64,000 nt of DNA from Phycisphaerales bacterium. GTDB taxonomy: Bacteria; Planctomycetota; Phycisphaerae; Phycisphaerales; UBA1924. The translations under genes and the position numbers were made by a program. This document shows positions 61,780-64,000 of this stretch, one piece after another. Each line of letters begins with the position of its first letter. The stretch's first letter is position 1. The stretch is taken from assembly GCA_020847535.1 (NCBI GenBank), contig JADLBU010000031.1, positions 1-64,000 on the forward strand, read 5' to 3'. Under the pieces are notes generated by a model that was not told the origin of the DNA, did no database searches, and saw only the letters and a program-made list of their open reading frames with translations.

Positions 61780-63186
61780 CTACTTGAGCGCTGCCTCAAG
61801 GTCATCCGCGAGCCGGCTCGCGATCGGCTCATCCATCGATATGATCACAGGCCAGAAGCCGTGCTCCTCATCCAGCACGATCCGCGTCGGCCGCATGTCG
61901 CTCACCGGCTGCCCGTTCTCTCCGAGGCCGTGATACCTGCTCTCCACAACCACGCGGGCGCTCTCGGGCAATCGGATTCCGCCATCCTGTTCGCGCGTGT
62001 ACGGGATCCAGGCCACGCGAAGCCGGCACAGCGCCGATCCTTCAACCGCGGGCTGGCGCTGCGGCGACAGGTTGTGGATATGGGCCATCAACACCCGCGC
62101 CATCGGGTCTGTCATCTCGATGCGTACATGCGTCTGGTCGGGGCGCTGGCGATCAAACATCTCCACGATCGCTCCGCCTCCCGAGCGCTTGGCGCGCACC
62201 CCGGCCGTCTTCTCGATATCCAGCATCTTCGGCTGCCCGGTGGCATCGATGAGCAATCCCGCAGCGCCGAGCGTGATCTTCATTGCCTCGGATGATTCCG
62301 GAATGACCGTTGCCTCGAGCTTCTTCGCCAGCCCCACCGGATCGTTGTTCCCGTTGGTCAGGACGATGATCACCGTCCCATCCTCGTGGCGGATCATCTG
62401 GGATGCATATCCCCACACACCTCCCGAGTGCTCGTGTCGCCATCCGCGAGCCCCCGAGCCGATGTACCACCCGCATCCGTACTCACCCAGCCCCGCCGTG
62501 AACATGCGGCCCTTGGCCGTTTCATCAAGCAGTTGATCACCGCGCAGCGCCTTGTCGAACGCGAGCATGTCCCGCGCCGAGGAGACCACACCGCCAGCGC
62601 CCTTGTATCCCCACGCCATCGAGTACGGCTGATCGCTCGCCCGCGCCTTGCGCCCGCCCCGTGCATCCACCCGTGTCGTCACCAGTCGCGGATCCTTAGG
62701 GGGGATGCCGACCATCCTGCTCCCGGTCATCCCTGCCGGCGCCAGCACCTCCTCGGCGATGAACGCTTCGTAGCTCTTTCCGCTCACCTGCTCGATGATC
62801 GCCGCGAGCAGGAAGTACCCGACATTGCTGTACTCCATCTTCGTCCCCGGCGCAAACCGCAGCGGCAGCGCCAACATCCCCTTCACCATCGCCGGCCCCG
62901 TGTCCTCTTGAAACCGACCCTCGTTGGAAACTCCCGATGTATGCGACAGCAGATGCCCCACCGTGATCCCGCTCGCGTGCTCGGGGACATCGTGCAGGTA
63001 CAGCCCGATCGGGGCATCCACCCGCAGCTTTCCTTCCATCTCCAGCCGGAGGGTCCCGCACGCCGTGAAGGCCTTGCTGATCGAGCCGATTTCGAAGAGT
63101 GAATCCGCCGACATCGGCGCCAGCTCGGTGTTCGCCAGCCCGTCCCCCTTGGCGAGCACGACAATCCCGCGATCCGCGACCAGCAC
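61780..63186 (-). CDS. Serine hydrolase of the beta-lactamase/class C family (main part)
   Basis: 468 aa from GTG 63186. The catalytic SxxK is IGSISKAF near residues 33-40 (Ser-Ile-Ser-Lys), the YxN is YSNVGY near 119, and HSGGVWGYASQM near 261 is the HxG region. A C-terminal domain of about 150 residues follows. The GTG start falls right after an in-frame TGA; upstream in the same frame lies a signal peptide. So either the gene is interrupted or the stop is read through (see next entry and findings). A cytoplasmic product from the GTG would lack its export signal. Confidence 0.8.
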   Translation of the reverse strand: MLVADRGIVVLAKGDGLANTELAPMSADSLFEIGSISKAFTACGTLRLEMEGKLRVDAPIGLYLHDVPEHASGITVGHLLSHTSGVSNEGRFQEDTGPAMVKGMLALPLRFAPGTKMEYSNVGYFLLAAIIEQVSGKSYEAFIAEEVLAPAGMTGSRMVGIPPKDPRLVTTRVDARGGRKARASDQPYSMAWGYKGAGGVVSSARDMLAFDKALRGDQLLDETAKGRMFTAGLGEYGCGWYIGSGARGWRHEHSGGVWGYASQMIRHEDGTVIIVLTNGNNDPVGLAKKLEATVIPESSEAMKITLGAAGLLIDATGQPKMLDIEKTAGVRAKRSGGGAIVEMFDRQRPDQTHVRIEMTDPMARVLMAHIHNLSPQRQPAVEGSALCRLRVAWIPYTREQDGGIRLPESARVVVESRYHGLGENGQPVSDMRPTRIVLDEEHGFWPVIISMDEPIASRLADDLEAALK

Positions 63187-63192
63187 CGCGCC

Positions 63193-63342
63193 TCAGAACT
63201 GGCCCAGCGTCTCGCGCTGTATGATCGCATCAAGCGCATGCCCTTGCGTGCCAGCAACCACGGTTTGGCCGTTGACGCCTGCAAATGCGCCACAGACCAC
63301 CAGCGCGTACGCCGCGAAATTCGATAGCAACGCGCATCTCAT
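63193..63342 (-). other. In-frame upstream part of the serine hydrolase, ending in TGA
   Basis: ATG 63342 opens a 49-codon stretch: a signal peptide (FAAYALVVCGAFAGVNG) and the segment ALDAIIQRETLGQF, then TGA at 63195-63193, then GAVLVADRGIVV of the main ORF without frame change. In family proteins this junction is continuous, usually FSGAVLVA-like. Confidence 0.75.
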
Positions 63343-63381: not shown

Positions 63382-64000
63382 CTACCGAATATCCCTTCCG
63401 CGCACGCCGTCGATTGTGTGCATTCCGTAAACTCCGCCACTGAACCTGCTGCCTTCCCAACCCCCTTCTCCTTTACGATACGGCTCCATAAGCGTCGAAG
63501 CCGGGCTCAATTGCGCGCTACCGTCAATCAACCCGAGCAGCACGCCCTTGCCGATTGCATTCGGAGGCGTCATGACGATTCCGTCGCATTCCGTGAATGC
63601 CGCTTTCTGGGATGGAAACACCACGCTGTCGATCCCGACCGCGCGCCACTGTTCAGGGCCGGTTCGAGTTAATGCGTTCCAGAATTCGGGCTGACTCACC
63701 AGCGTCGCAGAATAAAAGTATGTGCATATGCTGGGAGACCCTGGGCGATAGTGAGATACGTGCGGCATTTTGCCGTCATAGTACAAATGGGACATTCCGA
63801 GACTCCAGACAAAGTACATATCGAAGTAAATCGCCGGAAACTCGCCGCTGTCATGTGGTATCAGCACAATGCCACGTGGATTGGTGAAGTAGGGGAATAC
63901 ACCACGGAACTCCGATGTATAGCTCGCAACATTCGCGCTGTGAGACCGCAGGTTCGCAAGCGACGCCACATCCTTGCCTGCGGTTCGGGATTGTCGTAGC
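63382..64000 (-). CDS. Prepilin-like (type II secretion pilin fold) protein, N-terminus outside window
   Basis: The frame is open to the right edge; only about 205 residues are visible. The leading segment SRTAGKDVASLANLRSHSANVASY resembles what follows the cleaved hydrophobic helix of DUF1559/prepilin-type proteins (SNLRSxx), after which an alpha/beta domain with VFFPYFTNPRG and GLIDGSAQLS follows. The ORF track begins at an internal GTG. No function beyond a pseudopilin-like scaffold is claimed. Confidence 0.6.
   Translation of the reverse strand, partial: LRQSRTAGKDVASLANLRSHSANVASYTSEFRGVFPYFTNPRGIVLIPHDSGEFPAIYFDMYFVWSLGMSHLYYDGKMPHVSHYRPGSPSICTYFYSATLVSQPEFWNALTRTGPEQWRAVGIDSVVFPSQKAAFTECDGIVMTPPNAIGKGVLLGLIDGSAQLSPASTLMEPYRKGEGGWEGSRFSGGVYGMHTIDGVRGRDIR

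Follow-up and report, generated by a model that had tools for sequence, protein, structure and literature searches.

Organization of the interrupted hydrolase gene

In the DNA analyzed here (a stretch of 64,000 nucleotides, in the following called the window), a serine hydrolase gene on the minus strand is separated from its signal peptide by an in-frame TGA, which raises the question whether this codon is a lesion, an erroneous base of the draft assembly, or a functional element of decoding. The TGA is located at 63195-63193 (minus strand) and represents codon 50, preceded by 49 sense codons from the ATG at 63342-63340. Translation of the upstream part revealed a Sec-type signal-peptide-like segment starting with this ATG (MRCALLSNFAAYALVVCGAFAGVNGQ, 63265-63342, minus strand, boundary set by eye) and ETLGQF as the last residues before the stop. 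In the same frame, GAVLVADRG follows, and the frame stays open until a TAG at 61780. The remainder of the hydrolase (61780-63192, minus strand) comprises a PF00144 domain and a C-terminal domain, otherwise intact. The coding score of this frame was 0.58 upstream of the stop (best other frame 0.16) and 1.13 downstream of it (best other frame 0.20). Since both flanks are coding in frame and a single continuous homologous protein of relatives covers both sides of the stop position, the in-frame TGA in this exported hydrolase gene is a real observation beyond chance. The arrangement described in an earlier sequence-only reading, a TGA between a signal-peptide leader and the main open reading frame, was thus confirmed by translation and coding scores, and the second start it had named just after the stop is present as well (GTG, 63186-63184, minus strand). 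This putative restart codon lies few bases past the TGA, with a candidate weak Shine-Dalgarno sequence (GAGG, 63194-63191, minus strand) at a distance of 4 nt.

Comparison of the GTG-initiated ORF (468 aa) with Pfam resulted in a match to Beta-lactamase PF00144 (E = 1.4e-54; 185.9 bits against a gathering cut-off of 27). Because this match begins only at profile position 20, the GTG-initiated ORF lacks the N-terminus of the domain. Alignment showed intact catalytic motifs on the minus strand, namely SxxK (SISK, residue 87, 63073-63084), YxN (YSN, residue 171, 62824-62832), and HxG (HSG, residue 305, 62422-62430). The best solved relative by sequence was the alkaline D-peptidase 4y7p (E 2.5e-23), and nine matches to the same Pfam fold were found in the genome of the window. 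Judged by domain, motifs, and leader, the interrupted gene encodes an ordinary PF00144 serine hydrolase that is predicted to be exported.

The codon replaced by the stop

The best match in another genome came from a member of the same genus (G001), with 51% amino acid identity over nearly the whole protein, a comparable hydrophobic leader (locus L002), and no internal stop. At the site in question, this orthologue reads TLGQF-W-GSVLVADRG with the codon TGG. Family-level searches revealed TGG at this position in 13 of 20 homologues, the others carrying S, R, or A, and among 25 loci from named GTDB records, a set that shares some genomes with the former, TGG was found in 20, with S or T in the others. 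All long-form relatives that were found possess TGG, and W50 was invariant in an alignment of 13 sequences. A stop at this codon was detected in none of the 20 homologues and 25 GTDB loci; by this comparison, the stop is private to the genome of the window among the genomes examined. A single-sequence scan of genome contigs found no relatives, while an alignment-based scan did. One second apparent internal stop (L011, G020) turned out to be the terminal TGA of that gene, followed by a chance open frame.

The window hydrolase shares SxxK, YxN, HxG, export, and the C-terminal domain with a long planctomycete PF00144 subfamily characterized by the motif LGQFWG, from which it differs by a TGA in place of the invariant Trp codon, in this genome alone. 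The sequence-only reading had assumed a family motif F-S-G-A-V and a change from the serine codon TCA; the closest relatives read F-W-G instead. Because the relatives carry an invariant Trp codon TGG, the codon change deduced from the alignments is a single G-to-A transition that turns the TGG of the conserved Trp-50 into TGA. What held up was its more general proposal of a single-base nonsense change, by recent mutation or base error: the stop is one step away from a conserved codon, and a sense codon, which it had suggested looking for in relatives, occupies the site in the same-locus orthologue and all other relatives.

The state of the remaining protein was assessed by leaving out each full-length sequence in turn and comparing it with its relatives at conserved columns, W50 being excluded since its residue is supplied by reading TGA as W. 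The window protein revealed no departure at about 53 near-invariant columns, the fewest among 11 sequences, and the remaining ten showed 1 to 17 departures each. Apart from the stop, no second disabling lesion was found in the hydrolase gene.

Nonsense mutation versus assembly error

Very probably, an isolated one-base change has turned TGG into TGA at the codon of the conserved Trp-50, in what is otherwise an ordinary exported hydrolase of PF00144. This amounts to a lone nonsense codon or erroneous base in a member of a known family. For annotation, this means one interrupted hydrolase rather than a shorter cytoplasmic enzyme starting at the GTG. Since the protein deviates nowhere at conserved positions, the stop aside, either a very recent mutation or a wrong draft base is indicated, and the odds between the two are roughly equal.

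A real and recent nonsense mutation in the population, which would leave the gene heading for loss and perhaps still yielding some unexported enzyme by GTG restart, has a nearly even chance of being correct. It would need only one transition, and the same-fold paralogues mentioned above could buffer the loss. Furthermore, the gene neighborhood differs from that of the orthologue. Both the window's genome and G001 share the order acetyl-CoA synthetase, hydrolase, and PNPOx-like gene and, farther along, an amino-acid permease and an aminotransferase. Between acetyl-CoA synthetase and hydrolase, the genome of the window additionally harbors three genes that are absent from the G001 locus (from 63382 to the end of the window at 64000 and continuing to roughly contig position 66049; L079:7382-10049, minus strand). 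One of these combines a MauE-like membrane domain and a weak prepilin N-methylation motif (below cut-off) in one ORF. Because the three genes are located directly upstream, the expression context of the hydrolase has changed relative to its orthologue, which is in favor of a real mutation. Against a real mutation stands the lack of a second lesion or of drift at conserved sites, so that such a mutation, if real, must be very young; in addition, a product started at the GTG would be devoid of the conserved G47, W50, and G51 as well as of the export signal.

If the stop is real, translation from the ATG would end after 49 residues, and a secreted stub would be released. Restart at the GTG would provide at most a little of an N-terminally truncated, unexported enzyme, and background misreading at most a little full-length enzyme. 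A functional product arising from restart or from leaky decoding would also be compatible with the downstream frame being intact.

Somewhat short of an even chance is given to a wrong consensus base or a strain-mixture artefact in the draft assembly, with the true gene being intact. The assembly is a fragmented draft (134 contigs, 91% complete), its same-genus relative is a metagenome-assembled genome, and the rest of the gene appears intact and under selection. On the other hand, short-read assemblies with good coverage seldom contain isolated substitution errors.

Decoding of TGA and the RF2 frameshift site

Functional UGA readthrough with insertion of Trp, giving a regulated or dual-location enzyme, is improbable. 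The stop falls exactly on a Trp codon, so that a tRNA-Trp misreading it would regenerate the protein in its ancestral form, and both flanks of the stop are still conserved; however, the stop itself is absent from all relatives. UGA readthrough is known to be promoted by tRNA-Trp variants with a 4-bp anticodon stem, A9C, or G24A (PMC13092985), and the UGA at a Trp position resembles this situation. Among the 49 tRNAs of the window's genome, a single tRNA-Trp (anticodon CCA) was identified, whose anticodon stem has the normal length of 5 bp and whose sequence carries A9 and G24; thus, the known readthrough variants are absent. A stimulatory RNA structure beside the stop was not indicated either, as the fold was no better than those of shuffled sequences (z = -0.58). 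Orthologue conservation of the stop, a stimulatory structure, and a suppressor tRNA feature, by which programmed readthrough would be recognized, are therefore all lacking at this locus.

The sequence-only reading had also raised the option that readthrough produces both cytoplasmic and exported forms, for which neither the relatives nor the tRNA-Trp nor the RNA fold offered support. Because the signal peptide precedes the stop, readthrough alone would lead to the exported full-length form only, and a cytoplasmic form would additionally require restart at the GTG. That TGA is decoded as Trp at a useful rate and, together with the adjacent GTG restart, yields an exported and a cytoplasmic enzyme from one gene is a still more distant prospect. 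If readthrough were shown, it would represent an unusual dual-location device in Planctomycetota; nothing here supports it.

Hardly any credence is left for the GTG as the native start with an unrelated segment upstream, for which the GTG and its possible weak Shine-Dalgarno sequence right after the stop could be cited: this candidate is contradicted by orthologues that run through the site without a stop and possess both a signal peptide and the conserved LGQFWG. A reassignment of TGA to tryptophan throughout the genome or an insertion of selenocysteine, favored by nothing except the TGA codon itself, can practically be dismissed, as an RF2 gene with the SPF motif is present, TGA ends more reading frames than any other stop (315 of 544 terminal stops in 876 kb of the window's genome), no tRNA with a UCA anticodon occurs among the tRNAs of this genome, neither SelB nor a tRNA-Sec above the gathering score was found in it, and the ancestral residue at the site is Trp rather than Cys. 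A screen of the same 876 kb for in-frame stops flanked on either side by coding-like sequence resulted in only 16 candidates (8 TGA, 4 TAG, and 4 TAA), one of which, the TGA discussed here, was compared with homologues. Among these candidates, TGA was not clearly overrepresented relative to its proportion of terminal stops. This screen combined a hexamer coding score with a six-frame check, without which shadow frames swamped it. Overall, neither programmed readthrough nor a reassigned codon finds support; the in-frame TGA shows no sign of a programmed element, and nothing points to novel decoding. The preferred explanation thus remains the one-base change from TGG.

As a side observation, the +1 frameshift site in the RF2 gene prfB was compared among Phycisphaerales. 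In the window's genome (G000:C5), the frameshift region (L171:2528-2602, minus strand) was aligned with loci L172-L196. An almost invariant AGGCGCGGAT-N7-ATCCGCGA block, for which Rfam gave no match, ends just before the slip site, in place of AGGGGG, a Shine-Dalgarno-like element reported to be hyper-conserved at RF2 sites (PMC12421855). The block could form a 7-bp hairpin, with pairing in 98.9% of cells. Since no two-sided changes (covariation) were found in it among the aligned prfB loci and the copy of the window's genome folded no better than shuffles (z -0.82), this hairpin is a suggestion only. The slip site of the window's genome reads CTT TAA C, not CTT TGA C, and among 26 Phycisphaerales genomes, TAA was found in 20 and TGA in 6. 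Elsewhere, TAA was reported at the RF2 site in 1.4% of 8,164 genomes and not as broadly fixed in any clade (PMC12421855), so that the RF2 sites of Phycisphaerales, being mostly TAA and devoid of the AGGGGG element, are at odds with that survey.
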